Assembly (NCBI RefSeq): GCF_032930845.1
Contig: NZ_CP136758.1
Location: 2,991,001-3,055,000, forward strand
Source of the DNA: Parvularcula sp. LCG005
GTDB lineage: Bacteria > Pseudomonadota > Alphaproteobacteria > Caulobacterales > Parvularculaceae
Direction: 5' to 3'
Length of the DNA: 64,000 nucleotides
Part shown: piece after piece, positions 4,250-42,687 of the stretch
How positions within the stretch are numbered: position 1 is the stretch's first letter
Layout: the number at the start of each line of letters is the position of its first letter
Notes under the pieces: generated by a model
Databases searched by the model: none
What the model was told of the DNA's origin: nothing
What the model saw: only the letters and a program-made list of their open reading frames with translations
Program-made: the position numbers and the translations under genes

Positions 4250-4896
4250 GAGCGGCGTTCCGGTTTCCTGATCATCAGGATCTGAGCGCCCGAATGGGTC
4301 AGACTGGGGCGCGTTTCGAGGTCGAATGTCCACGTCGCAGCGGCTTTGGTCAATTCCTCTTGGGCCCTTTCACCCTTGGGAAATATCAACAATCCGTCAT
4401 CCGACATGAGGGGAACTGCCAAATCGAGCAGTTTGTCGAGTGCCGTAACTGCCCTTGCCGTTACCACATCATAGGGTGGGTGTTTCACGTGGAACACTTC
4501 GGCTCGTTGCGACGAGCTGTGACAGTTGCCCAGTGGCAATTCGCTAATGACAGTCTGCAGAAAGCGCGCTTTCTTCCCAACACTATCCACCAGCTGCAGG
4601 CGAAGCTGTGGCAACCGCTGCTCCGCCATGATTGCGAGGACAATACCCGGAAATCCTGCGCCGGAGCCTATATCGATCAACCTCTGTGAAGTAGCCGGTA
4701 GAAGATCGAAAAGCTGCGCGGAGTCGGCATAATGCCGCTCCCACCGATCGCCCAAGGACGCGCGCGCTATCAGATTGGTGTGCTGCGCGGTTTCGACCAG
4801 CAGCTCGTCGAAAGCCGCAAGTTTTTGCGCCTCTTCAGCTGAGAGCTGGAAAGCACGCTGTATGTGACCCAAGTCAGTCCATGAGGCAGTTGTCAT
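4246..4896 (-). CDS. rsmG: 16S rRNA (guanine(527)-N7)-methyltransferase RsmG
   Basis: A 216-residue SAM-dependent methyltransferase (GidB) that modifies G527 of 16S rRNA. Seen: the SAM-binding loop [16 protein letters not shown] and [13 protein letters not shown] of the Rossmann fold. The start ATG at 4896 overlaps the mnmG stop as ATGA, and its stop overlaps parA. Odd feature: the peptide VFHVKH in the middle of the protein is encoded by a full parS-like palindrome (4481-4496), so this gene carries a segregation site within its coding sequence. Confidence 0.95.
4481..4496. other. parS: parS site inside rsmG
   Basis: The 16-bp sequence TGTTTCACGTGGAACA differs by a single base from the perfect palindrome TGTTTCACGTGAAACA recognised by chromosomal ParB proteins. 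It lies in rsmG, 230 bp from parA and about 9 kb from the candidate origin. That is where alphaproteobacterial parS clusters are normally found. Confidence 0.9.
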
Positions 4897-6770
4897 GACG
4901 CCATCTTGCTCGCACCCGCCTTTTTCACGTGAAGCAGCAGGATCGCGAGCGCCGCGGGTGTTGCTCCCTCCACCCTCGAGGCCTGTCCGATCGTTTCAGG
5001 TCGTGCGGCGGCCCATTTTGCGGCCACCTCTTTGGAAAGGCCGCCCACCGCCGCGTAATCAAACGCTTCTGGAATACGTACCGATTCCTCGCGTTTGAAT
5101 GCGGAAATATCGGCTTCCTGCCGGTCCAGATACCCTGCGTAAAGGGCATCCGCCTCAATACCAGCGCGTATATCGGGCCCAATGGTCGCCAAGGTGGGTT
5201 CGATCTCTTCCAGCTTGGCAAAGTCCACGTTGGGCAGAGAGAGGAGGTCGATCAGATTTCGACGGCGCCCGTCCTGATTAACCTGAATACCATAATCGGC
5301 TGCCTCTGGTGGAGTCAGGCTTCGCTGGGTCATAAGCGCCGTTGCAGATGTCTGACGATCGTGTTTCACGTGGAACACTTTTTCTCGAAACGCTCCGACG
5401 CAGCCCCAGTCAATACCAATAGCCGTCAATCGGCTGTCGGCATTGTCAGCCCGCAAGCTGAGCCGGTATTCGGCTCGTGAGGTAAACATACGATAGGGCT
5501 CGGACACGCCGCGTGTCACCAAGTCGTCAATCATGACTCCGATATAGGCCTGCGAGCGATCCAGAATAAGCGGCTCGGTCGCACCATTGGCCTGGCGCGC
5601 CGCGTTAAGACCCGCCATCAGCCCTTGGGCTCCAGCCTCTTCATAGCCCGTCGTGCCGTTGATCTGACCCGCTAGGAACAGACCCGCCATCGCCCGCAGT
5701 TCCAAGGTCGGGCGGAGCGCGCGTGGATCCACGTAATCATATTCGATCGCGTAGCCGAACTGCATGATTTCGACCTTCTCCAATCCCACAATTGTCCGGA
5801 TTAGTGCCTCCTGCACGTCCGACGGCAACGATGTGGAGATTCCATTCGGATAAATGGTGGGGTCGTCCAGCCCTTCCGGCTCAAGGAAGATCTGATGGGA
5901 TCCCTTTTCCGCAAACCGAACAATCTTGTCCTCGATAGATGGGCAATAGCGCGGCCCCTTGCCCGCAATGGCACCGGAATAGACAGCAGATTTGGTCAGG
6001 TTCTGGCTGATGATTTCATGGGTACGGGCATTGGTATGGGTAATTCCGCACGCAATTTGCGGGACATCGATCCGATCGTTGAGGAACGAGAACGGGACCG
6101 GCTCGGCGTCCGCCTCCTGCATCTCCAGTTTGTCCCAGGCAATCGTACGCCCATCCAGCCGCGCCGGCGTCCCGGTTTTCAGGCGTCCGAGCGGCAAATT
6201 GAGTTGTTCAAGACGCTCGCCCAATGCCTGTGCAGGTTTGTCGCCGACACGCCCTGCCGGAATGCGCTCTTCACCGCGATGGATGAGGCCGCGCAGAAAG
6301 GTGCCGGTTGTCAGGACGACCGCCCCGGCCGTTATCCGCTGTCCGTCCTCCGTCACCACGCCCGCGCATTGGCCGTCACCATCAACAATCAGATCGCCAA
6401 CCGCGGCCTCAATAACGGTGAGATTTTCATACGCCGCCAGAAGAGACTGGATGGCCGATCGATAAAGCGCCCTGTCCGCCTGGGTCCGAGGCCCACGGAC
6501 AGCAGGACCCTTTGAGCGGTTCAGCAGCCTGAACTGGATCCCCGCCTTATCCGCCGCCCGACCCATCAGGCCGTCCAGCGCATCAATCTCTCTGACAAGA
6601 TGTCCCTTCCCCAATCCTCCGATGGCAGGATTGCAGGACATCTCTCCAATTGTTTCACGACGGTGTGTGACGAGGGCCGTCTTGGCGCCCATGCGCGCAG
6701 CCGCCGCGGCAGCTTCCGTACCGGCATGTCCACCACCGACAACGACGACATCAAAATGAAGATCAGCCAT
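4893..6770 (-). CDS. mnmG: tRNA uridine-5-carboxymethylaminomethyl modification enzyme MnmG
   Basis: A 625-residue FAD protein (GidA) that with MnmE installs the cmnm5 group on U34 of several tRNAs. Seen: FAD-binding [20 protein letters not shown] at residues 8-27, [13 protein letters not shown] near residue 47, [14 protein letters not shown], and the C-terminal helical domain that contacts MnmE. Length is normal for the family. The gene carries a parS-like 16-mer at 5362-5377, encoding VFHVKH, and a weaker copy at 4921-4936, encoding LHVKK. Its stop overlaps rsmG, and it lies 41 bp downstream of mnmE. Confidence 0.97.
4921..4936. other. Degenerate parS-like site near mnmG 3' end
   Basis: TTTTTCACGTGAAGCA keeps the central TTTCACGTGAA core of parS but differs from the 16-bp consensus at two positions, 2 and 14. 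It lies in the mnmG coding sequence in the same reading frame as the two better sites. It could be a weak ParB site or a decayed one. Confidence 0.5.
5362..5377. other. parS: parS site inside mnmG
   Basis: TGTTTCACGTGGAACA, identical over all 16 bases to the copy in rsmG 881 bp away. Exact repetition of a 16-mer in two unrelated genes supports a ParB-binding role rather than chance. Confidence 0.9.
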
Positions 6771-11326: not shown

Positions 11327-11827
11327 ATGCAGCGGCATTGGGAGCACAGGATAGTGAAGCTGACCGAACTGGCCCTGAAGACTTGGGAAAACCTACCCCC
11401 TGACAGCCAGGATAGTCCTCAACGTCGAATCGCTGACTTCCTGACGTGGCAGGAAGATGCTGTGCCAACGCTCCCGCCACTTAACATCACTCGTACATCC
11501 TCACCATTGAAGTTCTGGCAGCGGACATTCCGGGTTTCGCATATGACCAGACAGGAAAAACCAACTGACATCGCTCGCCGGGCAGCCAACGGCCTATCCG
11601 TGGTCTTTCCTACAAATAGCCATCTAGACATTCTCCTGGATCATTTCGCAACCAACTACAGCCTGGTACAACCAGAAAACGTGGATCCGACTGACCCCTT
11701 CGGCGACGTCGCCAAGTGGACGGCCGTGCAGGAATTCATTGTCACCACAGCATCCCATCCAACCAACAACTTCGTTGTCTTTGGACACGACGCCGATCCC
11801 ATTTTTATCCTGTCAAAAATGGAATGA
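11327..11827 (+). CDS. Unrecognised protein between rho and hemJ
   Basis: A possible 166-residue protein that I do not recognise. It has no signal peptide, no clear membrane segment and no nucleotide-binding motif; the middle is polar and the C terminus has alternating hydrophobics (NNFVVFGHDADPIFIL). Base composition is visibly more AT-rich than the neighbours. It lies opposite to rho and hemJ, in a gap with no long competing frame. A GTG at 11354 preceded by CAGG is an alternative start that would give a 157-residue product. It may be a recently acquired or lineage-restricted gene, or a spurious frame. Confidence 0.5.
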   Translation: MQRHWEHRIVKLTELALKTWENLPPDSQDSPQRRIADFLTWQEDAVPTLPPLNITRTSSPLKFWQRTFRVSHMTRQEKPTDIARRAANGLSVVFPTNSHLDILLDHFATNYSLVQPENVDPTDPFGDVAKWTAVQEFIVTTASHPTNNFVVFGHDADPIFILSKME

Positions 11828-12275: not shown

Positions 12276-13313
12276 TCAGCCTTTATGATCACGGATGAGG
12301 GACACCAGCTCGGCGACGTTTTCCGGCGGTGTATGGGGCACAAAACCGTGTCCCAGGTTGAAGATGAACGGTTTCCCGGCAAAAGCTTTCAGCAGCCCCC
12401 TCGCCGCTTCTCGCATGGGCTCTCCGCCCTGCACGACCAGCAGGGGATCAAGCCCCCCTTGTACGGCGCCGTGGGGTGACAAATGCTTTGCCGCCCAGGC
12501 CCAAGGCAGGCCCGTGTCGATTGATACACCCGCGAACAGGGGCTCAGCGGCCACATCCTCATAAAGCGGCCCACAGGCGCGCGGAAACGCGATGACGGGC
12601 ACATCCACGACCACCTTCACCATCTCGGCAATACGACGGACAGGCTCCAGGCAATACCGGCGGAAAAACGGCTCGGGCAGGCCGCTGGCCCAGCTGTCGA
12701 AGATCTGCACAGCGTTGGCGCCGGCCTGCACCTGGCGGATCAGATAGGCGGCCGTTGTCGTCACGAGCATATCGATCAGGTCGTTGAACGCGTCTTCGTG
12801 CTCATAGGCGAAGGCGCGCAGTGCAGAGGGATCCTTACTGCCCCTGCCCGCGATCATGTAAGTAGCGACGGTCCATGGCGCGCCAGCGAAGCCGATCAGT
12901 GCTTTTTCGGGGACCAGTTCACTGCGCACCCGCTCAACGGTTTCGTAGATGGGTGACAGACGGTCATGAATATTCGCCGGATCAAGACGGTCGAGGACCT
13001 CCGGCGCAAAAACGGGCTCAAGCCTTGGCCCTTCTCCCTGCGCAAACCAGACGTCGAGACCGAGGGCGTCGGGGATCAACAGGATGTCAGCAAACAGGAT
13101 GGCAGCGTCCAGGTCATACCGCCTGATCGGCTGCATGGTGACTTCGCAAGCGAGCTCCGGATTGTAGCACAGGTCCAGAAACGATCCTGCTTCCTTCCGC
13201 ACGGCCCTGTATTCCGGAAGATAGCGCCCTGCCTGGCGCATGAACCAGATGGGCGGTGGAGAAAGGACCTCCCCTGACAGGGTCCTGAGAAACGCGTGGG
13301 GATGGCCAGTCAT
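12276..13313 (-). CDS. hemE: Uroporphyrinogen decarboxylase
   Basis: A 345-residue TIM-barrel enzyme that decarboxylates uroporphyrinogen III to coproporphyrinogen III. Seen: the N-terminal substrate motif WFMRQAGRYLPEYR, GFAGAPWTVATYMI with the hydrophobic core of the active site, QIFDSWASGLP, and near the C terminus FNLGHGFVPHTPPENV. Length is standard. It is the first gene leftward from the candidate origin, as in Caulobacter, and is followed at 3 bp by hemJ. Its promoter must lie in the origin gap. Confidence 0.97.
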   Translation of the reverse strand: MTGHPHAFLRTLSGEVLSPPPIWFMRQAGRYLPEYRAVRKEAGSFLDLCYNPELACEVTMQPIRRYDLDAAILFADILLIPDALGLDVWFAQGEGPRLEPVFAPEVLDRLDPANIHDRLSPIYETVERVRSELVPEKALIGFAGAPWTVATYMIAGRGSKDPSALRAFAYEHEDAFNDLIDMLVTTTAAYLIRQVQAGANAVQIFDSWASGLPEPFFRRYCLEPVRRIAEMVKVVVDVPVIAFPRACGPLYEDVAAEPLFAGVSIDTGLPWAWAAKHLSPHGAVQGGLDPLLVVQGGEPMREAARGLLKAFAGKPFIFNLGHGFVPHTPPENVAELVSLIRDHKG

Positions 13314-13358
13314 ACCGAAAAGTCTCTTGGTTGAATTAGGTAGTCCGAGTCATATGCC

Positions 13359-13376
13359 TGTTGATAATGTGGATAA
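13359..13376 (-). promoter_or_regulatory. Tandem DnaA boxes in oriC
   Basis: Two 9-mers lie head to tail without a spacer: TGTTGATAA (13359-13367) and TGTGGATAA (13368-13376). The second is the exact complement of the consensus TTATCCACA; the first has one mismatch. Confidence 0.85.
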
Positions 13377-13392
13377 GGGCGCACACCATGCG

Positions 13393-13401
13393 TTATCCCC
13401 A
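13393..13401 (+). promoter_or_regulatory. DnaA box variant in oriC
   Basis: TTATCCCCA differs from TTATCCACA at one position and lies on the opposite strand to the tandem pair, 16 bp away. Confidence 0.65.
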
Positions 13402-13410
13402 GAACACACA

Positions 13411-13419
13411 TTTTCCACA
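13411..13419 (+). promoter_or_regulatory. DnaA box variant in oriC
   Basis: TTTTCCACA differs from TTATCCACA at one position. It follows the previous box at 9-bp spacing on the same strand. Confidence 0.6.
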
Positions 13420-13630
13420 GTCGGGTTACGAACCAATTTTGAGTCCGGAACAGCACCCGGTATGGCCGGAGCATTTCGACGGCGCAACCAGTTCGCAGCA
13501 GGCTTTTCCGCGACACTTTAGGGGAAAACGATTTCCCGGTAGGACTAGGGGATGGCCACGGGATAAATGTATAACTTCTCCCAAAGCCCCCTCTTCCGGT
13601 CTGGCCGGAGTGAAGGATGAAGGAAGCACG

Positions 13631-14497
13631 ATGAGCATGACCGTACCCGATACGAACGTCCGGGCCGCCACGTGGTTTCACGTTCATCTGATCTCCGACT
13701 CTACAGGCGAAACCCTGTCAAACCTCTTAAAAGCGACGGCAGCGCGGTTCGAAACCGCAAAACCGCTGGAACACGTGGCCTCCCTCGTCCGCAGCCACGT
13801 CCAGCTGGACAAGGTTCTTGCACGGATTGAACAGGCGCCGGGCCTTGTCATGTACACTATCGTGGATCCCGGACTTCGGCGACGGCTGGAAGTGAAATGT
13901 GCAGAATTACAGGTCCCCGCCATCTCCGTGCTGGACCCCCTCCTCAACGCTTTTGCCGACTATCTGGGACTTGAGCAGACCTTACGTGCCGGCGCCCAGT
14001 ACGATCTTGATGAAGACTATTTCCGCAGGATCGCGGCGGTGGATTACACCCTCGCCCATGATGACGGGCAGCTGACCTGGGATCTTGAGGCGGCAGAGGT
14101 GGTGCTGGTCGGCGTCAGCCGCACGTCGAAGACCCCTACCTGCATGTATCTTGCTCACCGTGGCATCAAGGCGGCCAACGTGCCCCTTGTCCCGACCAGC
14201 CCGCATCCGCCGGAGCTTGAGACGTTGCGCAATCCCCTCGTCGTCGGTCTGACGGCCAGCCCACTCCGCCTCTCGCAGATCCGGCAGTCCCGCCTCACCA
14301 ACCTCGCGGCTGAACAGGATGTGTCGAGCTATTCCGATGAAACGGCCGTTCGGGAAGAAATCATGAAGGCCAAACGCCTCTTTGCGAAGCACGGTTGGCC
14401 GGTTATTGACGTGACGAAGCGGTCTGTCGAAGAAACTGCGGCCAAAATCCTGACGCTGCTTTCAGCTCGTCGGGGCGGAGACATCAACCAAGCATGA
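13631..14497 (+). CDS. PPDK/PEP-synthase regulatory kinase-pyrophosphorylase (DUF299)
   Basis: A 288-residue bifunctional Ser/Thr kinase and Pi-dependent phosphorylase that switches pyruvate,phosphate dikinase or PEP synthase off and on. Seen: the N-terminal VHLISDSTGETLSNLLKA, the P-loop-like GVSRTSKTPTCMYLA, and PLVVGLTASPLRLSQIR with the C-terminal helix. ATG 13631 follows GAAGGAAG. It is the first gene rightward from the candidate origin, corresponding in position to the first gene of the Caulobacter chromosome, and its stop overlaps maf as ATGA. Which of the two targets it acts on is not visible in this window. Confidence 0.93.
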   Translation: MSMTVPDTNVRAATWFHVHLISDSTGETLSNLLKATAARFETAKPLEHVASLVRSHVQLDKVLARIEQAPGLVMYTIVDPGLRRRLEVKCAELQVPAISVLDPLLNAFADYLGLEQTLRAGAQYDLDEDYFRRIAAVDYTLAHDDGQLTWDLEAAEVVLVGVSRTSKTPTCMYLAHRGIKAANVPLVPTSPHPPELETLRNPLVVGLTASPLRLSQIRQSRLTNLAAEQDVSSYSDETAVREEIMKAKRLFAKHGWPVIDVTKRSVEETAAKILTLLSARRGGDINQA

Positions 14498-16526: not shown

Positions 16527-17225
16527 ATGCGTCACGTCATTTTCGATACCGAAACAACTGGTTTTGAACCGCGCGAGGGCCATCGCCTGGTGGAAATCGG
16601 GGCGGTGGAAATGAAACATGGCGGCCTGACGGGCCGGACCTTTCACGTCTACGTCAATCCTGAGCGGGACATGCCTGACGGTGCCTATCAGGTGCACAAG
16701 CTGTCGGCCGAGTTCCTGAGTGACAAGCCGGTCTTTGCCGACCCGTCGGTGGGGCAGGCATTTGTCGAGTTTGTGGATGATGCGGTGCTGATCGCGCACA
16801 ACGCATCGTTCGATATGAACTTCATCCAGTTCGAGCTGGAAAAGGCGGGTCTGCCGAAACTCGACAATGAAGTCGTCGATACACTGAAAATCGCCAAACG
16901 CCGCTTTCCCGGCTCACCCGCCTCTCTTGACGCATTGTGCAACCGGTTCGGCATTGATCTGACCGCGCGGGAAAAGGATGGCCACGGGGCGCTGCTCGAC
17001 TCGCGCCTGCTGGCCGAAGTCTACATCGAACTGACCGGCGGTGCGCAGGCCGGCCTTGCCTTTGAGGGGGCAAATGCGGCCTTTGGGGGACAGCGGATTA
17101 TCGTGCCGCCGAACCCCGTCCGGGCGGCGCCGAGAAAGGCGCTGCTGACCGACGCCGAGAAGAAGGCCCATGAGACCTTCATTGCCGAGATGGAAAACCC
17201 GCTCTGGCGCCGCGTTCTTAATTGA
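16527..17225 (+). CDS. dnaQ: DNA polymerase III epsilon subunit (proofreading 3'-5' exonuclease)
   Basis: A 232-residue DEDDh exonuclease. Seen: ExoI motif FDTETTGFEP with the catalytic Asp-Glu, HNASFDMNFIQFEL (ExoII), and KDGHGALLDSRLLAEVY (ExoIII, with His and Asp). The C-terminal tail after residue 190 would bind the alpha subunit. ATG 16527 is 7 bp after coaE; an upstream in-frame start would lie inside coaE. Last gene of the five-gene rightward operon from the origin; its end overlaps the convergent ATPase gene by 8 bp. Confidence 0.95.
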   Translation: MRHVIFDTETTGFEPREGHRLVEIGAVEMKHGGLTGRTFHVYVNPERDMPDGAYQVHKLSAEFLSDKPVFADPSVGQAFVEFVDDAVLIAHNASFDMNFIQFELEKAGLPKLDNEVVDTLKIAKRRFPGSPASLDALCNRFGIDLTAREKDGHGALLDSRLLAEVYIELTGGAQAGLAFEGANAAFGGQRIIVPPNPVRAAPRKALLTDAEKKAHETFIAEMENPLWRRVLN

Positions 17226-18039
17226 TTTCCAGAAGACCGTGATTCTGGCGGTCAGACATGACTTTCGAGATCGTGTCGGCTGTTACCTGCGCCTCGCCCT
17301 GGGCATAGGCATAAACGAATGCCGTGTCGCAAAGGATATTGATCCGCCGCGGCACACCATCGGTGCGGGAGTAGATCAGATCCAGCGCCTCGGCGGTGAT
17401 CAGCTCCGGGTGCCCGCCCGCCTTCTCGATCCGGCTCAACACATAGTCAATTGTCTCCTCAGGGGCGAAGGCCTTGAGGTGATAGTGCGAGACGATGCGC
17501 TGGCGGAACTGGAGCAGGTGCGGCTGGTTGAGAATTCGGGCCAGCTCTGGCTGACCAAGGAGGACGAGTTGCAGCACGGGCGTGCCGTTGATTTGCATAT
17601 CGGCCAGCAGGCGAAGCTCTTCGATCGCGGCCTCGGGCAGAAGCTGTGCTTCATCAATGAACAGGACGGCCTTGCGCCGACGCTCATAGGCTTTCTTCAG
17701 AAAGTCGCGCAGCCGGCTGACGTTCTCGGTGCGGCTGCCGTCACTGGCATCCATGCCGAAACCGAACAGGACCCAGGCCGCAACATCATCGGACAGGCCA
17801 ACTGCGCCATTCAGACGACCCAGGATGTGGCCGCTCTGATCCTGGCTCATGATGTGATTGAGGAGGGTCGTCTTGCCGCTCCCGATCTCACCGGTGATAA
17901 CGACGATGCCGTTGGTCGCGGTCAGACCGTAGACGAGCATGGTCCGGGCCATCTTGTGGCCTTCGCCCCAAAACATCATTTCGGGTTCGGGATAGGCCGC
18001 GAAAGGCTTCCGGGTCAGCTGGAAATGTTCTTCGTACAT
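17218..18039 (-). CDS. XrtA/PEP-CTERM-associated ExeA-like ATPase
   Basis: A 273-residue AAA ATPase of the ExeA/GspA type. Seen: the family N terminus MYEEHFQLTRKPF, Walker A VITGEIGSGKTTLLNHI near residue 50, Walker B AVLFIDEAQLLP, LVLLGQPELA (sensor region), and an arginine-finger region FRQRIVSHYHLKA. The opening and Walker region match the ATPase that accompanies exosortase XrtA in PEP-CTERM/exopolysaccharide loci. ATG 18039 follows GAGGAA. A hairpin separates it from the upstream TPR gene, so it may have its own promoter or be partly attenuated. Confidence 0.85.
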   Translation of the reverse strand: MYEEHFQLTRKPFAAYPEPEMMFWGEGHKMARTMLVYGLTATNGIVVITGEIGSGKTTLLNHIMSQDQSGHILGRLNGAVGLSDDVAAWVLFGFGMDASDGSRTENVSRLRDFLKKAYERRRKAVLFIDEAQLLPEAAIEELRLLADMQINGTPVLQLVLLGQPELARILNQPHLLQFRQRIVSHYHLKAFAPEETIDYVLSRIEKAGGHPELITAEALDLIYSRTDGVPRRINILCDTAFVYAYAQGEAQVTADTISKVMSDRQNHGLLEIN

Positions 18040-18081
18040 GAATTCCTCAGCCTCCCTATGCCGGTAATCGAGGCCCGTTGA

Positions 18082-18114
18082 AAAGCCCCATGGGAAAAGT
18101 CCCATGGGGTTTTT
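18082..18114 (-). terminator. Bidirectional hairpin between TPR lipoprotein and ATPase genes
   Basis: CCCCATGGG and CCCATGGGG form a perfect 9-bp stem around a 6-nt loop. The minus-strand transcript continues with CTTTTC and the plus strand with TTTTT, so it could stop transcription from either side. Confidence 0.75.
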
Positions 18115-18129
18115 GATAGGCAGACCGAA

Positions 18130-20526
18130 TTAGAGGCCAGCGAGGGCGTCGTCGATCTGCTTCATCGTTACCTGCGTCTGTTCTGGGTTGAACAGGGATT
18201 TGGCTTTGGAAAGTGAACTCTGGGCCGCTGTTGCATTGCCTGCAGCCTTCTCGATCACGCCATTGTGATACAGCACGTCGAGGTTCTCGGGCAGACCGCG
18301 AAGGGCCGTCCGGCTATAACGTGACGCCTCTTCGGTATTGCCTGCCTTGAAGTGGGCCCATGCGAGCGTGTCCGCGAAGAACGGATTGTCCGTCCCTTCA
18401 AACCGGCGCGCGATCCGCAGGGCTTCCTCATCTGCGCCGCCCTTGTCGAGCAGAAGTGAGGCCAGGTTGTTCGCGGTCAGTGGCGAGAGGTTCTGTTCCG
18501 CCTGCAGACTGCGCAGCACGTCGATGGCCTCATCGATCTTGCCGGTGGTGATCAGTTCATTGGACAACAATGTCCGGATCTGAACGGTTGAATTGGCTTT
18601 CGACATGCCGTCGCGCAGAGCTTTCGTGGCGGCCTGAGTATTCCCGAGACGCTGCTCGGTAATATAGGCCAGAACCCACAACTGTTCCGTCTCAGGAAAT
18701 TTCTCGATACCCTGCTCGGCAATCACTCTGGCGCGTTCATTGTCGCCGGATGAATTCAGCAGGTCACCCATCAGGGAATAATCTGTACCCACCGCGGTAC
18801 CGTTGGCAATCTTGCCTTCGATCTCGTCGATAACTTCCTGGGTCCGGCCAAGCCGCTGGAGAATGCCGGCGCGGAGAATATATGTCCCCTGATCACCTGA
18901 ATCTTCAAGCAGGTCGTTGGCGACAGGCAGGGCGTCCACGTACCGTTCCTGACCAACCAGTGACCGGGCAAGGATGGACCGGCCCTGTTCTTCGAGTTGC
19001 GGGACAGCGAGAAGACGACGGGCGGCTTCTTCTGCATCGGCATAATTCCGCTCGGCCATCGCGCCTTCGGCGGCCTGAACCATCGCGTCTGTATCGTTCG
19101 GATTGGCACGCAGATAGCGCTGCAGCACGTCGACAGACCGGCTGATCTCACCGCGACGCATCAGGAAAGCGCGGTACTGATCAACGATTGGCTTGGTATA
19201 GCCGACCTGGTCGAGGGCACGCGCAAACTGGGCGTCCGCAAAGCGCATCTGGCCGGATGCCTCATAGGCGAGGGCGAGATAGACAAGGCCTTCGGCATTG
19301 TCCGGCGCGCCTTCCAGCGCTTCACGCAGGGACAGGATGGCGTCTTCTGGCTGCTCGCGCGCCAGCTGGATCTGACCTTGTGTGACCAAGGCGGTCGCAT
19401 TGCGCGGATCCTCTTTCAGGATCTCATCCTTGATCGCTTCAGCCGTGTCGATGTCCTGGGTGACGATCGCCACGTCTGCCACACCGTTCAGGGCGCGCAG
19501 GCGCTGATCGGTATCGAGATCCTTGTCATTGGCAAGGTCGCGGAACGCGGTCGAGCAGCGCTCAAAATCCTGTGCCTGACAGTAGAATGCTGGCAGGGCG
19601 AACTGCAGATCGATATCTTCGGGGTACTGATTGACAAATTTGATCAGGCTGGCTTCCGCGGCTTCATCGCCATTTTCCAGCCGGTCGATACCGACAATGC
19701 GGGTCACCACTTCGGTCTTGTTTTCGAGAAGCGGCAGTGCGGCAAGATAGTTCGCACGGGCCTCATCGATCCGGCGGAATTTCAGCAGCTGATAGTCGGC
19801 AAGCCGCTGACGATATGTACCGTTTTCCGGGGCGGCGTCGATCAGGTTGCCAAACGTGCTCAGCACGCCTTCACTGTCGCCCATGCGTTCGTTCAGGACG
19901 AGCTTGACGACCAGAAGCGCCTCGGGATCTTCAACCTTGGTCAGGCCGTCATTGATGGTGGCCAACGCCGCTTCGAAATCTTCATCGCGCACGCTGCGGG
20001 CAGCGAGAAGGTTGAAGAGTTCTGGATTGTTCGGATCCGCCGCCAGGGCACGCTGCAGGACCTCGGAAGCTTCAGGCAGCTTGTTCTCAAGAACGAGGGC
20101 AGCGCCCACCGTGCTGAGCGCCGTGACATTGTCGGCGTCCTGGTCCAGCACGCGCTGGGCATGTTCCTGCGCCCGCTCTGGTTCACCGGCCAGCAGGGAC
20201 AGACGGCCATATTCATTGTTGGCCTCGATATCCTGCGGCACGACGGCCAGAAGGCGTTGCAGCATCAGGGCCTGGCGGCCGAAATTTTCCTGTTCCTTCG
20301 CGATATTCGCGGCACCGCGCAGGGCGACCACATTGGTGGGGTCCTGGAACAGGGCGTTGTTGAATTGCAGGTTCGCGCTGTCGACATCGCCTTCGTCGAG
20401 ATATTCAAGGCCGCTATTGGCGAACTTGATGGCTTTGTCTTCTTTGCTCTCGCAACCGGCCAGCAACGCGACCGATACCAGAAGCGAAGCCCCCACAAGA
20501 CGGTGCTTAAGCGATTTTGCAAACAT
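18130..20526 (-). CDS. PEP-CTERM-system TPR-repeat lipoprotein (PrsT-like)
   Basis: A 798-residue protein with a signal peptide ending in lipobox LLAGC at residues 21-25, then TPR-type helical repeats along almost its whole length (recurrent patterns such as NVVALRGAANIAKEQ and ALAADPNNPELFNLLA). It matches the long TPR lipoproteins found with exosortase XrtA, thought to act in exopolysaccharide export or assembly at the outer membrane. ATG 20526 follows GGAGAGGA; an earlier ATG at 20553 overlaps the glycosyltransferase stop and would spoil the signal peptide. It lies directly downstream of that glycosyltransferase gene. Confidence 0.85.
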   Translation of the reverse strand: MFAKSLKHRLVGASLLVSVALLAGCESKEDKAIKFANSGLEYLDEGDVDSANLQFNNALFQDPTNVVALRGAANIAKEQENFGRQALMLQRLLAVVPQDIEANNEYGRLSLLAGEPERAQEHAQRVLDQDADNVTALSTVGAALVLENKLPEASEVLQRALAADPNNPELFNLLAARSVRDEDFEAALATINDGLTKVEDPEALLVVKLVLNERMGDSEGVLSTFGNLIDAAPENGTYRQRLADYQLLKFRRIDEARANYLAALPLLENKTEVVTRIVGIDRLENGDEAAEASLIKFVNQYPEDIDLQFALPAFYCQAQDFERCSTAFRDLANDKDLDTDQRLRALNGVADVAIVTQDIDTAEAIKDEILKEDPRNATALVTQGQIQLAREQPEDAILSLREALEGAPDNAEGLVYLALAYEASGQMRFADAQFARALDQVGYTKPIVDQYRAFLMRRGEISRSVDVLQRYLRANPNDTDAMVQAAEGAMAERNYADAEEAARRLLAVPQLEEQGRSILARSLVGQERYVDALPVANDLLEDSGDQGTYILRAGILQRLGRTQEVIDEIEGKIANGTAVGTDYSLMGDLLNSSGDNERARVIAEQGIEKFPETEQLWVLAYITEQRLGNTQAATKALRDGMSKANSTVQIRTLLSNELITTGKIDEAIDVLRSLQAEQNLSPLTANNLASLLLDKGGADEEALRIARRFEGTDNPFFADTLAWAHFKAGNTEEASRYSRTALRGLPENLDVLYHNGVIEKAAGNATAAQSSLSKAKSLFNPEQTQVTMKQIDDALAGL

Positions 20527-20549
20527 TGCGTTTCCTCTCCTTCCGCGGC

Positions 20550-21695
20550 TCACGCGGATACTGATGCGCGGTCAGACGTGGGCGCAATCGCTCCACCGTC
20601 GTGCCGGTCTTGGCATGAAGATACCGGTATATGGTTAAAGTCGCAAAGCGCGCGATGGTTTTCTCGATGTGTCGTCACGCGAAGGGTGTGTCCGCGGTCC
20701 GAAAAACGCTGCCCGGCGATCAGCAGGAGCGCGAAAGTCCTCAGGCCCAGTCGAGCTGACGGATCGATAGAAAGACACAGATCCTGTCCCGCGCGTTCGG
20801 TCCGAATGAGCAAATCGATCAGTGCCGGACGGCCGTGATCTTCAATATCGCCCTGCAGGATGATGCTGTCCGCCTCTTCGACCAGCGCGGCGGCACTGGA
20901 CCGCGGCTGATCTTCCAGCCAGCGTTTGGCCTTTATCGCGTGAGACAGCAGGCCGGGCAGAAGCCGGGCATCCTTGGCGTAGCGGCGCCATAATTGCGGG
21001 TCCTGGCCAATGCGCCACGCCCATTCCAGATTGAGGTTTTGGGCTAGGCTCGGCGCCCGTTTGACGCTGCCCGCGGCAAAATCCACCACAGCGCCCAGAT
21101 GGGCCATGGCCTTGACGTTCAGGCGGTCCTTGTTGCGGTCGAGCCAGATCTGACCTTTGGCCGCCCCGAGCGCGACGATCAGCAGATCCGGCTCCGTGGC
21201 GTTGACGGCATCAATCAATGCCGGCGCGCTCAGCTCATCAACCGAGCCAAAACCCGGATTGACCCCGCCAACCGCTTCCAGCCCCGCGCTGTCTGACCGC
21301 AGTGCCGCGACTGCGGCATCAGCCGCATTGGCGCGGCCGCCAAAGAAATAGGTGGTCAGGCGCGGTTCCAGTGGTTTGTGGCGCAGGACCTGGAAGATAT
21401 CGGCACCGGTAACCCGCTCATGCAGGTCAGCGCCCAGTAAATTGGCCAATTTCAGAAGCGGTGAGCCGTCACACGTGACAAGATCGGACCGCAGGATGGA
21501 TCGGTAGAACTCATCATTCTCCAATGCCATCGCCAGCCAGTCGAGATTGACAGTGGACAGGAACAGACGCCGTTTGTCCCGCGCCGCGTCGATCAGTCTG
21601 GTGGCGGCGTCATCCAGAGTGACATTGTCAAAGGGGATGCCGAACACGGCAACAGCGTCGCGGCTATAGGCCGTTTGCGGATCAGACTGGATCAA
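20550..21695 (-). CDS. WecG/TagA-type glycosyltransferase (GT26) with C-terminal STAS-like domain
   Basis: About 381 residues. Residues 15-240 fit the GT26 family (transfer of the second sugar to a lipid-linked intermediate): FGIPFDNVTLDDA, STVNLDWLAMA, TCDGSPLLKLANLLGA, ERVTGADIF, FFGG, and LLIVALGAAKGQIWL. Residues about 275-365 look like a STAS fold (DSIILQGDIEDHGRPAL, then SARLGLRTFALLLIAGQRF), an unusual fusion. TTG 21695 follows AGAGG at 5-nt spacing; TTG 21722 is an alternative with no ribosome site. Its stop is adjacent to the TPR lipoprotein gene, indicating one operon. Confidence 0.82.
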   Translation of the reverse strand: MIQSDPQTAYSRDAVAVFGIPFDNVTLDDAATRLIDAARDKRRLFLSTVNLDWLAMALENDEFYRSILRSDLVTCDGSPLLKLANLLGADLHERVTGADIFQVLRHKPLEPRLTTYFFGGRANAADAAVAALRSDSAGLEAVGGVNPGFGSVDELSAPALIDAVNATEPDLLIVALGAAKGQIWLDRNKDRLNVKAMAHLGAVVDFAAGSVKRAPSLAQNLNLEWAWRIGQDPQLWRRYAKDARLLPGLLSHAIKAKRWLEDQPRSSAAALVEEADSIILQGDIEDHGRPALIDLLIRTERAGQDLCLSIDPSARLGLRTFALLLIAGQRFSDRGHTLRVTTHRENHRALCDFNHIPVSSCQDRHDGGAIAPTSDRASVSA

Positions 21696-21783
21696 GGCAA
21701 CCTCTGCGCTCGGGCGGGGCAAGAAAGGATAGACGCAACGTCCATGTCACCAATTGCTTGAATTAGAGTTGCGATCTGGGAAA

Positions 21784-31656: not shown

Positions 31657-32538
31657 ATGCGGATCGGGGGTGTTGAGGCCGGCGGCACGAAATTCGTTCT
31701 GGGTGTCGCTGATCTCGACGGCCAGATCCTTTCGCGAACGCAGCTGCCAACGACCATGCCAGAGGCCACTTTGGCGTTGAGCCGGGAATGGTTGACCGAC
31801 CAGGCCGGGCCAACCGGGCTGGCGGCGATCGGCATCGGGACCTTTGGCCCTGCGGACATCAATCCGGCGTCGTCTACCTATGGCGACATCACCACCACAC
31901 CGAAGCCCGGTTGGCAGGGCGCCCATGTGCGGGCCGCTTTTCTCGACCTCGCACCGGTCGTCACCTTTGACACGGACGTGGCCATGGCAGGCCTCGGCGA
32001 GGCGCAATCGGGCGCGGGGCGGGATGTCGACAGCCTGATCTATGCCACCATCGGAACGGGCATCGGGGCCGCTTTCGTAAAGAACGGCGTTCCCCAATCC
32101 GGCTACACCCACGCTGAAATGGGCCACTTCCCGGTGGCACAGGACAAAGCGGCGGACCCCTATACCGGCTATTGTCCCTATCACGGCAATTGTCTGGAAG
32201 GGCTCGCTGCTGGACCGTCTATCATCGACCGATGGGGGGTACCGTTGAGTGAGTTGCCCGAGGACCATCCCGGTCACCAGATCATCGCAGACTATATTGC
32301 CCAGTTCTGCCGGACGGTAATGCTCGGCTTTGCGCCTGAGCGCATCGTGCTTGGTGGCGGTGTGATGAAGACGCCAGGTCTGATCGAGCGGGTGGTTGAG
32401 ACCACCGAACGGCATATCGCCGGTTATGCGGTGCCGCCCGGGGCGTCGTGGCGCGAATATATCGTGACCCCACAATGCGGAGACGATGCCGGTCTTGTCG
32501 GCGCGCTGGCCCATGCGCGCGGCCAACTGCCGCGCTGA
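31657..32538 (+). CDS. ROK-family fructokinase
   Basis: A 293-residue sugar kinase. Seen: N-terminal ATP motif GGVEAGGTKFVLGVAD, GIGTFGPADINP, the active-site region DTDVAMAGLGEAQSG, the phosphate-binding IGTGIGAAFV, and the zinc-binding stretch HAEMGHF...CPYHGNCLEGLAAGPS characteristic of ROK fructokinases such as Bacillus YdhR. It would phosphorylate fructose (or mannose) to the 6-phosphate. It is 5 bp after regA, suggesting transcriptional coupling to the redox regulators, which is unusual for a fructokinase. Confidence 0.88.
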   Translation: MRIGGVEAGGTKFVLGVADLDGQILSRTQLPTTMPEATLALSREWLTDQAGPTGLAAIGIGTFGPADINPASSTYGDITTTPKPGWQGAHVRAAFLDLAPVVTFDTDVAMAGLGEAQSGAGRDVDSLIYATIGTGIGAAFVKNGVPQSGYTHAEMGHFPVAQDKAADPYTGYCPYHGNCLEGLAAGPSIIDRWGVPLSELPEDHPGHQIIADYIAQFCRTVMLGFAPERIVLGGGVMKTPGLIERVVETTERHIAGYAVPPGASWREYIVTPQCGDDAGLVGALAHARGQLPR

Positions 32539-32777
32539 AGAGTTTTCCCGATCTAAAATCAGCCTGAACAGCGGCATCCATCCACCACCGGGATGGTCTC
32601 AGCTGAAACTGTGCATGTTGCCTCTTGCACTGCAGCGAAAATTGTCATTTCCTGTCATCAAAGGGTCAGAAAATGGACCCGTCGGGCAAAGGGGGAGGCT
32701 GAACAGGCCAATCATGCGGGAGCCACGATGTTGAATATAGGACCCACCCCCCATCGCTTCGGTTGGGTGCGCCAGTA

Positions 32778-33719
32778 ATGGACGCCTTTACCCCCGAAAT
32801 GGTAACGCTGGTCGTGGCCATGCTTGCAGCCGGGGCGGTTGCCGGTATCGCGGCGGGTCTGTTCGGCATTGGCGGCGGCTTTATTGTCGTCCCTGCGCTG
32901 ATAGCCGTCTTCGGCCTTCTGGATTTTGATCCTTCGCTCACTGTTCATATGGCGATCGGGACGTCCCTCGCGACGATCATTCTCACGTCGCTCAGATCCG
33001 TTCACGCCCATGCAAAGCGGGGTGCCGTCGACTTCACAGTGCTGCGCAGCTGGGCGCCGTGGATTATCGTCGGCGTCATCGCCGGCCTGATCTTTGCGGC
33101 CCAGGTGAAGGGCGCAACGTTGGTCACCGTGTTCGGGATCGGGGTCTTCCTGCTGTCGATCCACTTTTTATTCCCGCGTCTCCTGGGCAAATTGCAGATC
33201 AGCGATCATATGCCATCCGGCGTGGCGCTCATCGGACTTGCAGTCATTCTGGGCGGTTTCTCCGCGCTTCTGGGGATTGGTGGCGGCACGATTGCTGTGC
33301 TGACAATGACCTTGTGCGGACGACCGATTCACCAGGCTATTGCGACCGCTGCGGGGTTTGGCGCGATTATCGCCATTCCCGGCGCCATCGGCTTCATCAT
33401 CATGGGCTGGAATGACGCCGCCCTGCCGCCCGGGTCTCTTGGCTATGTCAATCTGATCGGGCTCGTCGCGATTGCCAGCACATCGACGCTGACAGCGCCT
33501 ATCGGTGCAGCGCTGGCGCACCGCTTGCCGCCCATTACGCTCAAACGTGTCTTTGGCGCCTATCTGGTATTTACCTCCCTCCTGATGCTGAAGGATGTCG
33601 CACCGTGGAGCCATCCGGCACCGGATGATGTCCCCCGCATTGCCAAAAGCGACCCCAATACTCCCGCGACGCGTCTGACGGCCGTTCCCGCGTCTTCAAC
33701 AGAAAGATCTGTGCCATGA
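32778..33719 (+). CDS. TauE/SafE-family sulfite/sulfonate exporter-like permease
   Basis: A 313-residue membrane protein with about eight hydrophobic segments and the internal duplication of the family: GLFGIGGGFIVVPALIAVFG in the first half and LLGIGGGTIAVLTMTLCG in the second. TauE/SafE proteins are proposed exporters of sulfite, sulfoacetate or other organic anions; the substrate here is unknown. ATG 32778 is chosen over TTG 32763. A 239-bp leader with potential hairpins precedes it. Its stop overlaps the downstream aminotransferase start by 4 bp, so the two are translationally coupled. Confidence 0.88.
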   Translation: MDAFTPEMVTLVVAMLAAGAVAGIAAGLFGIGGGFIVVPALIAVFGLLDFDPSLTVHMAIGTSLATIILTSLRSVHAHAKRGAVDFTVLRSWAPWIIVGVIAGLIFAAQVKGATLVTVFGIGVFLLSIHFLFPRLLGKLQISDHMPSGVALIGLAVILGGFSALLGIGGGTIAVLTMTLCGRPIHQAIATAAGFGAIIAIPGAIGFIIMGWNDAALPPGSLGYVNLIGLVAIASTSTLTAPIGAALAHRLPPITLKRVFGAYLVFTSLLMLKDVAPWSHPAPDDVPRIAKSDPNTPATRLTAVPASSTERSVP

Positions 33720-34855
33720 CCTTTGATCTGTCCCGCCGACTTCTTCTGGGCGGTGCCCTGTCGGGCGCTTCTCTCGCTGCATCAGGCATTGGCGCCGGTG
33801 CCTTTGCGCGCGAGTTCGAGACGCCGCCGAAGAAGAAATCCGTCTACGGTCCGGATCCAAAAGATGCGCATCTCATTTTCAACGAGAACCCCTATGGTCC
33901 CAGCCCCAAGGCACTGAAAGCCTTGGCGGAGGCCGCCGGTCAGGGCTGCTATTATCAGGGCAAATCAATCGGCTATCTGACCGATATGATCGCAGAGCGT
34001 CACGGCGTTGCGCCAGAGCAGGTCGTTATTGGCAGTGGCTCTTATGAACTGCTGACCGTGATGGGCCTTCTTTACGGCCAGAAGGGTAATATTCTGGGTC
34101 CTGACCTTTATTGGGACACGACCGCGAAATATATCGAGGCTCATGGCCTGACCACGCTGAAGCGGTCGCCCATGACGGCCGCGCTTGAAATCGACCTCGA
34201 CGCGATGCTGCCGTTGGTGACGGACGATGTCAGCCATGTGCAACTGGTGAACCCGAACAACCCGACCGGCCACGTTCTCGATCCGGCAGCTCTGCGCGCC
34301 TTCGTTCTCGCCGCCAGTAAAAAGGCCAATGTCCTCGTGGATGAGGCCTATATCGAAATTGCCGATGACCCTGAGGCGATCAGCATGATGGATCTGGTGC
34401 GCGAGGGCCACGACGTCATCGTCTGCCGAACCTTCTCGAAGATCTACGGCATGGCGGGCTTGCGGATCGGCTATGCGATCGGCCAGCCCGAAGCGATCGC
34501 TGCAATCCAGAACTCCCTGATTACGTCACCCAACGTTGCCGGCATTGCCGCCGCCATCGCCAGCTATGACGACAATGAGTTTCTCGGGTTCTCGAAATCG
34601 AAAATCCAGACCGCACGGGAAATGATCATGGAGGGGACGAAAGCCGCCGGCCTCAAGCCGCTGCCGTCCCAGACATCCTTCGTCTTCGTGGACACCGGTA
34701 TGGACGCCAACGTCTTCCGTGACCGGATGCGGGAAAAGGGCGTCCTGATCCGCGGCAAATACGGGGACTTCCACAACTATTCGCGCGTCAGCTGCGGCTA
34801 TCTGGAAGACGTCAAACGCTATGTTGCGGCGCTGCCTTACGCTTTGGAGGGGTGA
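33716..34855 (+). CDS. HisC-like aminotransferase with Tat-type signal peptide
   Basis: A 379-residue fold-type I PLP aminotransferase resembling histidinol-phosphate aminotransferase. Seen: N-terminal SRRLLLGGALSG followed by a hydrophobic stretch and AFAREF, which looks like a twin-arginine export signal; then FNENPYGPSPKALKAL, VNPNNPTGHVL, VDEAYIEIADD and the PLP-Lys region RTFSKIYGMAGLRIGYA. It appears to be exported folded with its cofactor to the periplasm. It is coupled to the TauE-like permease gene, suggesting a shared substrate. A strong terminator follows. It could alternatively act on other amino acids or aromatic substrates. Confidence 0.85.
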   Translation: MTFDLSRRLLLGGALSGASLAASGIGAGAFAREFETPPKKKSVYGPDPKDAHLIFNENPYGPSPKALKALAEAAGQGCYYQGKSIGYLTDMIAERHGVAPEQVVIGSGSYELLTVMGLLYGQKGNILGPDLYWDTTAKYIEAHGLTTLKRSPMTAALEIDLDAMLPLVTDDVSHVQLVNPNNPTGHVLDPAALRAFVLAASKKANVLVDEAYIEIADDPEAISMMDLVREGHDVIVCRTFSKIYGMAGLRIGYAIGQPEAIAAIQNSLITSPNVAGIAAAIASYDDNEFLGFSKSKIQTAREMIMEGTKAAGLKPLPSQTSFVFVDTGMDANVFRDRMREKGVLIRGKYGDFHNYSRVSCGYLEDVKRYVAALPYALEG

Positions 34856-34895
34856 GAGGACCGGCTCGCCGGGAAGACCTGTTCTGGCTGAGCCT

Positions 34896-34930
34896 GCCCC
34901 GCGGTTGCTGCCCTCAACCGCGGGGCTTTT
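34896..34930 (+). terminator. Intrinsic terminator after the aminotransferase gene
   Basis: A perfect 12-bp stem, GCCCCGCGGTTG with CAACCGCGGGGC, encloses a 7-nt loop and is followed by TTTT. It ends the TauE-aminotransferase transcript. Confidence 0.92.
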
Positions 34931-35031
34931 ATATGATCGAAAGACAATTCTGATCTATAGATTGCAGTGACACCCCGCGACGGCCTGAAGCAGGCTGTCG
35001 GTTGGGTCATGGTGTCCGGGGGCAACGCATC

Positions 35032-35979
35032 TTGATCCGCAATATCGCACTTGATCGGCTGAAACTCATACTGGCGCTGATGGTGGTCGGGATCCACGGT
35101 CAGGTGTTCATTGATGTCTCACCGGTTTCATCATGGTTGACGGTGAACGGCCTGTTTCGCATTGCCGTCCCCATCTTTCTCCTGATCAACGGATATTTTC
35201 TGGCGGCCATCATTGATGACCCCGAGGCCCGACGTCGGTGGTTTGTTCGGATCCTCAGCCTTTATGTGATCTGGATGGCAATCTATGCGCCGATGTGGAT
35301 GTCCCAGGCCGGGTCGATGGGGAAGGCGGTCTATTTCGTTGCCATCGGGTGGTTGCACCTCTGGTATGTGATCGGCCTTTTGTGTGCCGGGCTTCTGCTT
35401 GTGCTGACCAGGCGGTGGGGTTCGCGGTTCGTGGCGGTTTCGGCCCTCTTTCTGTTTCTGGTCGGCGTCGCCATTCAGTATGCTGGCATTTATGACCTGG
35501 TGGGCGGCCTGGCGGGAACGGTGGCCGATAAATTCGGCGCGCACCGTAATTTCCTGTTTCTCGCCTATCCGCTGCTGGCTTGCGGCTATCTCATTCGCCG
35601 ACATGACTGGGACGGGCTCATCAACATGCAGCAGGCGATCTGGCTCACCGCGTGTGGTCTTGTCCTGTTACTCGTGGAAAGCGGGCTAATCTACTGGACG
35701 GCGCCAGAAACCGCCGCTGTCGACAATTACATCAGTGTCGGTCTGGCCGCGCCGGCGATCTTTTTGATGGCGAAACAGATCAAGATTGAGGGGCGCTTCG
35801 GCAAAGAAACCTCGCTGCTCGCCAATGGCATCTATTTCATTCATCCCCTGCTCCTGGTGGGAATGGGGATCAACGATGCCATGACCGCGACCGCGGCAAC
35901 GGTCGTCACGATCGCCCTCAGCACCGTTGTCGCCTGGGGAATGGTGAAGCTTTCCGTGATCCGCAAATGGCTGTTGTAA
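35032..35979 (+). CDS. Acyltransferase-3 family membrane protein
   Basis: About 315 residues with roughly nine to ten hydrophobic segments. The N terminus NIALDRLKLILALMVVGIHG carries the LDxLK...H pattern of the acyltransferase-3 family (OafA/WecH/ExoZ type), which O-acetylates or succinylates surface polysaccharides at the inner membrane. HLWYVIGLL in the middle and IYFIHPLLLVG near the end fit the same family. Starts are uncertain: TTG 35032 begins the conserved region; TTG 35002 and GTG 35012 are further upstream. Surface-glycan genes nearby include the PEP-CTERM set and the GT2 pair at 44.6 kb. Confidence 0.8.
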   Translation: MIRNIALDRLKLILALMVVGIHGQVFIDVSPVSSWLTVNGLFRIAVPIFLLINGYFLAAIIDDPEARRRWFVRILSLYVIWMAIYAPMWMSQAGSMGKAVYFVAIGWLHLWYVIGLLCAGLLLVLTRRWGSRFVAVSALFLFLVGVAIQYAGIYDLVGGLAGTVADKFGAHRNFLFLAYPLLACGYLIRRHDWDGLINMQQAIWLTACGLVLLLVESGLIYWTAPETAAVDNYISVGLAAPAIFLMAKQIKIEGRFGKETSLLANGIYFIHPLLLVGMGINDAMTATAATVVTIALSTVVAWGMVKLSVIRKWLL

Positions 35980-36000
35980 GTCCATCGGTGTCGGTCGCAT

Positions 36001-36029
36001 AAAAAAGTGCGGACCTTCAAGGCCCGCAC
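36001..36029 (-). terminator. Intrinsic terminator downstream of the PEP-CTERM-like remnant
   Basis: The minus strand reads GTGCGGGCC, a short loop, GGTCCGCAC (one G-U pair) and then six T residues. It terminates leftward transcription, fitting the headless reading frame that ends at 36058. Confidence 0.85.
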
Positions 36030-36057
36030 CGTATCAAGCGTCTTCAACCATAATGCG

Positions 36058-36180
36058 TTACGAAGATTTCTTCTTCCGGCGAAGTGCGCCGGCACCGACC
36101 AATGCGCTACCGAACAGATAGGCTGCGGCAGGAGTTGAGATCGACGTGCCGCTGATGATCCTGCGAAGATGAAGAATAAA
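36058..36180 (-). pseudogene. Headless C-terminal end of a PEP-CTERM-like protein gene
   Basis: Minus-strand translation ends TPAAAYLFGSALVGAGAL followed by RRKKKSS and a stop codon. This is the layout of a PEP-CTERM-type sorting tail: a Pro-containing motif, a hydrophobic helix and a basic end; the closest variant I know is VPxPAAAWLFGSALLG. Upstream the frame has no ATG and runs into the tRNA-Thr gene, where it meets a stop codon. Only the last 30 or so codons of a gene therefore seem to remain, followed by an intact terminator. The first Pro of the usual VPxP is replaced (ISTP), so the assignment is by pattern. Confidence 0.55.
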
Positions 36181-36181
36181 A

Positions 36182-36257
36182 TGGTGCCGCTTAGGTGACT
36201 CGAACACCTGACCCCATCATTACGAATGATGTGCTCTACCAACTGAGCTAAAGCGGC
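36182..36257 (-). tRNA. tRNA-Thr (anticodon CGU)
   Basis: A 76-nt cloverleaf with encoded CCA. The acceptor stem pairs GCCGCTT with AAGCGGC, the D arm contains AGCTCAGTTGGTAGAGC, the anticodon arm is CATCA-TTCGTAA-TGATG with anticodon CGT at 36222-36224, and the T arm contains GGTGTTCGAGTCACC. It reads ACG codons. It is the only tRNA seen in the window; the truncated PEP-CTERM-like frame abuts its 3' end. Confidence 0.97.
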
Positions 36258-36349
36258 CCTGACCTGTCGTGGACAGACGGCGCCCATAGCGGATGAGCGC
36301 CGGACTGGCAATATGCTGCCGTCGCCAATTTGGATACGGCCTCTGACGT

Positions 36350-36823
36350 CTACTGCGCGCGGCGCAGCTCCTGCTGCCGCATCGGCATGGCATCGACCAG
36401 CTCGAAAATGTCTTCGGTGCTGATCACGTCGGTCCAGCGTCCCTTTTCAGTCCCGTCGAGGCCGATCAGAACGATCACGAAATCAGCATCCGCCGTGCCG
36501 AGGAGGTCGAGGACCTGCGAGCGCTCGGTCGGCGTCAGGCGACGATGCGGCGTCTTGGGGTCAGCATAGTCCGTCAATTCGTCATCGGTGCCGTGGACCA
36601 TGACGGTCACGATATCGCGTTCGGCAAAGCCGCTGCGATGGATCTGTGTGTCTTGCCGCAGGAGTTTCTCAAGCGGCTCAATGGCGTCGCTGGTCGTACC
36701 GTAGACCACCAGACGGCGTTCCCATTCAAACGTTTCGAGACCGTCCCAAGCCATGGCAGCATTCCAAGAAAAAAGCGCAGTTGCCGAAACAACTGCGCCC
36801 CATCTTTTTCGTTCCGTACGCAC
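36350..36823 (-). CDS. DUF4174 family exported protein
   Basis: A 157-residue protein with an N-terminal signal peptide (basic start, hydrophobic core, cleavage near AMAWDG at about residue 25). The body, LVVYGTTSDAIEPLEKLL, FAERDIVTVMVHG, VIVLIGLDGTEKGRW and VDAMPMRQQELRR, follows the DUF4174 pattern, a thioredoxin-like-fold family of unknown function in alphaproteobacteria. No CxxC is present, so a redox role is unlikely. It lies immediately downstream of infB with a 5-bp gap and may be read from the rimP-nusA-infB transcript. Confidence 0.82.
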   Translation of the reverse strand: MRTERKRWGAVVSATALFSWNAAMAWDGLETFEWERRLVVYGTTSDAIEPLEKLLRQDTQIHRSGFAERDIVTVMVHGTDDELTDYADPKTPHRRLTPTERSQVLDLLGTADADFVIVLIGLDGTEKGRWTDVISTEDIFELVDAMPMRQQELRRAQ

Positions 36824-36828
36824 GGCGA

Positions 36829-39486: not shown

Positions 39487-39651
39487 ATTTCTCCAACGGA
39501 CTGACGGTTCAGCCCAAAATTCTATCTCTGCACCAGCCCGTCAGGGACGGGTTCGGCGGGTGCACATCCATATGATCTACCACATCCAGCCGAGGCGAGG
39601 ATGGTCCCATACCGTCCAAGGCCCCCAAGGTCCACGGGGGCGAAGGGCTTT

Positions 39652-40278: not shown

Positions 40279-40298
40279 GTTGACAGCAGGGGAGGCTT

Positions 40299-41870: not shown

Positions 41871-41934
41871 TTTATCACTCCCGTTTCACTGGTGTGGGTT
41901 GGGGCGAATGCCCCCATGTTTCAATTCGGTTCGA

Positions 41935-42327: not shown

Positions 42328-42369
42328 CTGACGCTCAATGTGGTTGCAGTGCGCATGGTCATGGTTCGA

Positions 42370-42687
42370 CTAGACGGACCCTTCGCGCTCGATCACGAGA
42401 ATACGCGCAGGGCCAATGGGGTGGGCGACATGCTCATCGCCATTATCGGCAACAAACATGTCCGTGGTATTGAGAACGACGCTCCTGGTCTCGCCATTCT
42501 CCTTGTACTTCATTTCAACCTTGCCATCGAGGACGACAAAGACTTCGCATCCGTCATTGATGTGCCATTTATAGGGCTGGTCGGTCCAGTGAAGGCGGAC
42601 GCTGGTGCCGTTCAAGCGCGCGATGTCGCGGGCGCCCCACGGACGGTCGGCAACGAAATCGCGCACATCAGAAATCACACTCGGCAT
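42370..42687 (-). CDS. Small cupin-domain protein (rimP-nusA insert, gene 2)
   Basis: A 105-residue single-domain cupin. Seen: the two cupin motifs in WHINDGCEVFVVLDGKVEM (His and Glu near residues 42-48) and MFVADNGDEHVAHPIG (His near residue 85), the metal site of the barrel. The function is not readable; close relatives include metal-dependent isomerases, dioxygenases and sensory barrels. It lies 2 bp after the small lipoprotein gene, so the two are probably translated from one message. Confidence 0.85.
   Translation of the reverse strand: MPSVISDVRDFVADRPWGARDIARLNGTSVRLHWTDQPYKWHINDGCEVFVVLDGKVEMKYKENGETRSVVLNTTDMFVADNGDEHVAHPIGPARILVIEREGSV

Follow-up and report, generated by a model that had tools for sequence, protein, structure and literature searches.

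The window analysed here is a stretch of 64,000 nucleotides, bases 2,991,001–3,055,000 of the single-contig genome of Parvularcula sp. LCG005 (3,084,878 bp, 99.99% complete). In this window, hemE and a PF03618 (DUF299) gene diverge from a gap of 317 bp (Table 1). HemE begins with an ATG at 13313 (minus strand), and the PF03618 gene begins at about 13631 (plus strand). PF03618 is taken by us to be the same family as COG1806. The start positions and the Pfam matches of both genes confirmed the gap as it had been described in the first-pass annotation. The PF03618 reading frame stays open upstream to 13361, and therefore the gene-free status of the gap is homology-based. Within the 288-aa reading, the Pfam match starts at residue 18, and tblastn matches to the protein in 29 family relatives start at residues 1–15. 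Since the open frame from 13361 fills the gap, a crude ORF set (at least 100 aa, without gene calling) misses it and contains no gap above 250 bp anywhere. The PF03618 gene is followed by maf, aroE, coaE and then a dnaQ-like exonuclease gene, so that family matches within the window also bore out the gene order claimed earlier. A 166-aa frame between rho and UPF0093 (hemJ-like), at 11327–11827, matched no Pfam family at E 0.001. The region 17218–21722 codes for an ATPase and a long TPR protein and has a glycosyltransferase-like gene, presumably resembling an exopolysaccharide/exosortase type of cluster. The G+C content of the gap is 52%, against about 60% in the bases of this genome that were fetched. 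An AT content above that of the genome, which the available portions of PMC1914354 list as a mark of origins, is thus seen in the gap as a modest excess.

Table 1. Features in and around the hemE/PF03618 gap (window coordinates).
Feature	Position	Strand	Basis
Candidate oriC, intergenic hemE/PF03618	13314..13630		Box cluster, skew minimum, conserved gene pair, footprint
hemE, uroporphyrinogen decarboxylase, flank	12276..13313	-	PF01208, 366.4 bits
PF03618 (DUF299) kinase/pyrophosphorylase gene, flank	13631..14497	+	PF03618, 303.1 bits
Probable unwinding edge beside hemE	13314..13358		AT content; putative role
Conserved GANTC (GAGTC), CcrM methylase target type	13347..13351		GANTC early in genus/family gaps
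DnaA box TTATCAACA, 1 mismatch, abuts next box	13359..13367	-	Position kept in 16 species
DnaA box TTATCCACA, perfect	13368..13376	-	Strongest footprint in 16 species
DnaA box TTATCCCCA, 1 mismatch, contains TCCCCA	13393..13401	+	Position kept, 10 window-genus species
DnaA box TTTTCCACA, 1 mismatch	13411..13419	+	Position not among kept ones
Second GANTC (GAGTC) of gap	13441..13445		Sequence
Three parS-like sites	4481-4496, 4921-4936, 5362-5377		About 8-9 kb from origin

DnaA boxes were scored at one mismatch or less against the consensus TTATCCACA. The box scan reproduced the earlier observation of one perfect and three single-mismatch boxes within 61 bp, the first two abutting each other. 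The number of boxes is ordinary, but their clustering in the gap is unusual. The whole window holds 10 boxes at this threshold, while the shuffle mean is 6.32 and 9 of 100 shuffles reach 10. Perfect boxes are not enriched genome-wide either (10, compared with 13 in the reversed control). On the other hand, when the gap was dinucleotide-shuffled 20,000 times, no shuffle reached four boxes and the maximum was two. The gap is the sole cluster of at least three boxes per 110 bp in 707,878 bases of this genome (22.9% of it). A pattern of two perfect abutting boxes with up to three mismatches has two matches in the whole genome, one in the gap with one mismatch and one at 448,240 with three. Several DnaA boxes beyond chance, a further mark of an origin, are therefore found here.

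The arrangement of the locus is conserved. The PF03618 gene is present in all 61 genomes including this one; those of G023 and G057 each carry one in-frame TGA inside the match. Fifty loci of the 61 were examined (30 given as loci and 20 fetched) and 11 were left out. In 49 of the 50, this one included, hemE and the PF03618 gene diverge from an intervening gap. The gap was found in 30/30 family loci (313–494 bp) and in 19/20 order loci (314–541 bp), the exception being L079, which has no hemE inside the fetched stretch. The position between hemE and COG1806/PF03618 is itself used to recognise origins in the available portions of PMC1914354. The positions of the boxes were compared by footprinting in 16 species, 10 of the window genus and 6 of the genus g7, with the last GANTC within the first 70 bp of the gap as the anchor. 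The genus g8 and 13 other family gaps were left out because the anchor is unusable there. Mean box mismatches were 3.44 at offset 12 and 2.0 at offset 21, which are two abutting positions, against 5.44 at the next best offset and a mean over offsets of 6.76 (sd 0.84). For the 10 window-genus species, the value at the position of the 13393 box was 3.4, where the mean was 6.86. Position is thus kept among near relatives by three of the four boxes, the exception being the box at 13411. Most relatives have weak box forms at the kept positions, some with the W-box core TCCCCA. Apart from the gap studied here, 48 gaps have zero to two boxes at one mismatch or less, except two with four and five. With at least three such boxes in 3/49 gaps, the present gap is unusual yet not alone. 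The footprint in near relatives suggests an old age for the DnaA pair and one opposed box, but not for their strength.

The GC skew was computed on samples, namely 20 evenly placed 20-kb stretches, and in 5-kb bins around the window that leave out 2986001–2991000, just ahead of it. The skew is positive in 11/11 sampled stretches of 1–1,560,000 and negative in 9/9 from 1,694,001 to 2,946,000. The cumulative G–C minimum (–662, 5-kb bins) is in the bin 3001001–3006000, which contains the gap, and a second, shallower dip (–596) is in bin 3051001. A whole-chromosome skew minimum had been proposed in the first-pass annotation as a check on an origin here; run by sampling, the check placed the minimum in the 5-kb bin with the gap and none at dnaA. 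Within the window, the GC-skew minimum (14305) and the keto (MK) minimum (14501) lie about 1 kb from the gap, the former being too coarse to decide the exact opening site. The RY (purine) disparity minimum is at 44136, away from the gap. An AT skew of –0.07 to –0.16 extends across about 12 kb of the window (32001–44000). KOPS words numbered 37 forward and 6 reverse over the stretches of 1–1,560,000, and 3 and 29 over those of 1,694,001–2,946,000. The reversed control gave 20/19 and 9/18, respectively. The KOPS balance was lowest (–14) in the gap bin and the preceding bin. The opposite skew turn at about 1,560,000 divides the chromosome into one arm of about 1.64 Mb and another of about 1.44 Mb. 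The terminus is placed by this turn because no dif was found: of two patterns tried, the first had no match and the second had 17 against 20 in the control. Three parS-like sites were found in the window at three mismatches or less to the parS consensus used (0.16 expected; 0/100 shuffles reach three). They are within or beside rsmG/mnmG, near parA/parB-like genes named by reading their translations.

The box cluster, the skew minimum and the conserved hemE/PF03618 pair support the earlier proposal that the gap is oriC. It is very likely the chromosomal origin, predicted to be of the hemE type of Alphaproteobacteria. Boxes in such a place could also belong to a DnaA-regulated divergent promoter between the two genes, with the origin elsewhere. 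DnaA of Caulobacter is described in the available portions of PMC4468827 as regulating promoters too, and nine other places in the present genome carry perfect boxes. However, the skew minimum lies at the gap, the gene pair is a known origin address, and no second cluster appeared in the portion of the genome examined. A mere promoter is therefore very unlikely. The skew also shows no turn at dnaA, which is located at 579,696 (579.7 kb), at a distance of 660 kb from the gap. Skew is positive in the stretches at 462 kb and at 616 kb, and the 20 kb around dnaA contain three boxes at one mismatch or less, unclustered. Although the origin lies beside dnaA in many bacteria, this common arrangement is extremely improbable here.

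Alternatively, the origin might occupy a different intergenic stretch not more than about 60 kb away, such as one closer to the contig end. The second skew dip would agree with this, as would the two perfect boxes at 3,075,659 and 3,082,045, both in the final 15 kb. Since the minimum at the gap is deeper, and the two boxes, separated by 6.4 kb with a single one-mismatch box in between, form no cluster, there is only a slight chance of such a location. The two boxes, less than 80 kb from the predicted origin, are possible DnaA-titrating or regulatory sites. With the hemE/PF03618 gap as the origin of a Parvularcula-like chromosome, the polarity of the remaining genome is fixed as well. A literature search on the Parvularcula replication origin returned no paper on the subject by title.

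For the working of the predicted hemE/PF03618 origin, we propose that DnaA loads on two sets of boxes, the abutting minus-strand pair (13359–13376) and the opposed plus-strand boxes at 13393 and 13411. The AT-richer edge toward hemE would then open, and two forks would start at the gap, proceed bidirectionally and meet near 1.56 Mb. The AT content is 57–60% in 40-bp windows at 13314–13373 against 38–53% elsewhere in the gap, which is a modest difference. In the 30 family gaps, the hemE-side edge is on average the AT-richest part. The replication start had been placed near 13,472 in the earlier reading, and this was not supported, as 13,472 is the midpoint of the gap. Since 13314–13419 accommodates the boxes as well as the conserved block and the AT-richest stretch, opening is more likely near 13314–13358, beside hemE. 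A DnaA-trio was searched in the gap by the published pattern and was absent. With respect to the BUS arrangement (a box pair with at least three NAN trios within 16 bp on the opposite strand), the pair is present and the trios are absent. The trio pattern occurs in 1/10 window-genus and 4/6 g7 gaps, so it is no shared feature. As for an IHF site, looked for as a mark of Cori-type control, the best match in the gap has three mismatches to the consensus used.

The opening edge contains the conserved GANTC site. GANTC is rare in the genome, with 875 sites in 705,878 unambiguous bases, or 1.24 per kb against 3.60 expected from base frequencies. Its density in the window-genus gaps is 9.8 per kb. 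A GANTC is located within the first 70 bp in 10/10 gaps of the window genus, 6/6 of g7 and 0/1 of g8 (2.24, 1.52 and 0.24 expected), and in 9/13 other family and 7/19 order gaps (3.24 and 4.41 expected). For the family, this amounts to 25 of 30 gaps. The available portions of PMC3973325 report a general intergenic GANTC excess, and GANTC motifs already known from the Caulobacter origin; the excess in the present gaps may partly be of this general kind. A GANTC-N-GANTC doublet is found in 6/10 window-genus gaps, and two doublets are present in the fetched bases of this genome. The doublet was looked for in the gap itself and is absent. At the loci L030, L032, L034, L035, L036 and L039, the doublet (GAGTCCGAGTC or GACTCCGAGTC) is in the first 35 bp, directly ahead of the DnaA pair. 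The genome encodes a protein of 383 aa (frame length) with a RAMA domain (62.6 bits), and among 14 controls only Caulobacter gave such a signal. By this domain, the protein is termed CcrM-like. Through its methylation, the conserved GANTC edge may contribute to the timing of initiation.

CtrA, identified by its model score (426.3 bits against a cut-off of 350), is also encoded in the genome. In the gap, there are no CtrA boxes (TTAA-N7-TTAA) at two mismatches or less and no TTAACCAT half-sites at one mismatch or less. The gap is therefore not classed as a Cori-type, CtrA-controlled origin. Exact CtrA boxes were found in 1/10 gaps of the window genus, 0/6 of g7 and 0/1 of g8 (0.07, 0.08 and 0.02 expected). 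They were found in 8/13 gaps of other family genera and 14/19 order gaps (0.33 and 0.50 expected). Together, 22/32 gaps of the more distant relatives have an exact box against 1/17 for the window genus and the two near genera. In several other genera, the CtrA box sits within the AT-rich edge of the gap. The genome as a whole shows no enrichment of exact CtrA boxes (19 against 26 in the reversed control). On a HemE tree, the exact box has to be gained or lost 10 times, where shuffles gave 16.5; supported branches force eight of the 10 changes. A full loss of CtrA boxes in the window genus would be too strong a statement, because 6/10 of its gaps have a box at one mismatch or less (1.04 expected), at scattered positions. 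The idea that more DnaA boxes offset the loss of the CtrA box found no support, since the number of DnaA boxes is no different between 23 gaps with and 26 gaps without an exact CtrA box (Mann-Whitney p 0.41). The canonical CtrA box thus appears to come and go in the hemE gap across the order, and it is missing here. Any influence of CtrA on the origin of this species would not depend on a canonical TTAA-N7-TTAA box. As a speculative extension, the window genus may have an origin largely freed of the canonical CtrA boxes found in most other origins of the order and equipped with strong DnaA boxes, in which methylation of the CcrM-marked opening edge, and not CtrA, gates initiation. We consider this rather improbable.

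As such, the origin is ordinary and sits at a known alphaproteobacterial address, as judged from the available portions of PMC1914354 and PMC4741004. According to the former, the origins of Caulobacter and Rickettsia lie between hemE and COG1806, and the origin of Rickettsia prowazekii has the same flanks as the present gap. The oriC predicted for Sphingopyxis, which lies next to hemE and includes conserved DnaA boxes as well as an unwinding element (accessible part of PMC4741004), is similar by description. The Bacillus-type BUS shares the tandem boxes with the better one upstream, which is the order in 57% of predicted cases in the accessible part of PMC8287927. It differs in its DnaA-trio, the pattern of which is missed by the present gap and is seen in 5/16 gaps of near relatives, the present gap being counted among the 16. 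A further comparison is with Cori of Caulobacter crescentus. Both have the same flanking genes, a divergent gap and DnaA boxes (PMC1914354), the W-box consensus TCCCCA as the core of a box (PMC4285127) and GANTC motifs (PMC3973325), as far as the available text of these papers goes. In contrast, the available portions of PMC1914354, PMC4468827 and PMC4285127 describe five CtrA sites in Cori, whereas the present gap has none at two mismatches or less. They also describe G-boxes, TGATCCACA, with reduced DnaA affinity, whereas the present gap has one perfect E. coli-type box. In the accessible part of PMC4468827, CtrA sites are unseen in origins outside Caulobacter and possibly Rickettsia, and the accessible part of PMC7200025 reports that CtrA binds adjacent to the origin in Hyphomonas. 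What the present result adds is comparative: from one member of the order to another, the presence of the canonical CtrA box in this gap seems to vary, and this species lacks it. The family is a testable place to ask how origins gain or shed a master regulator.
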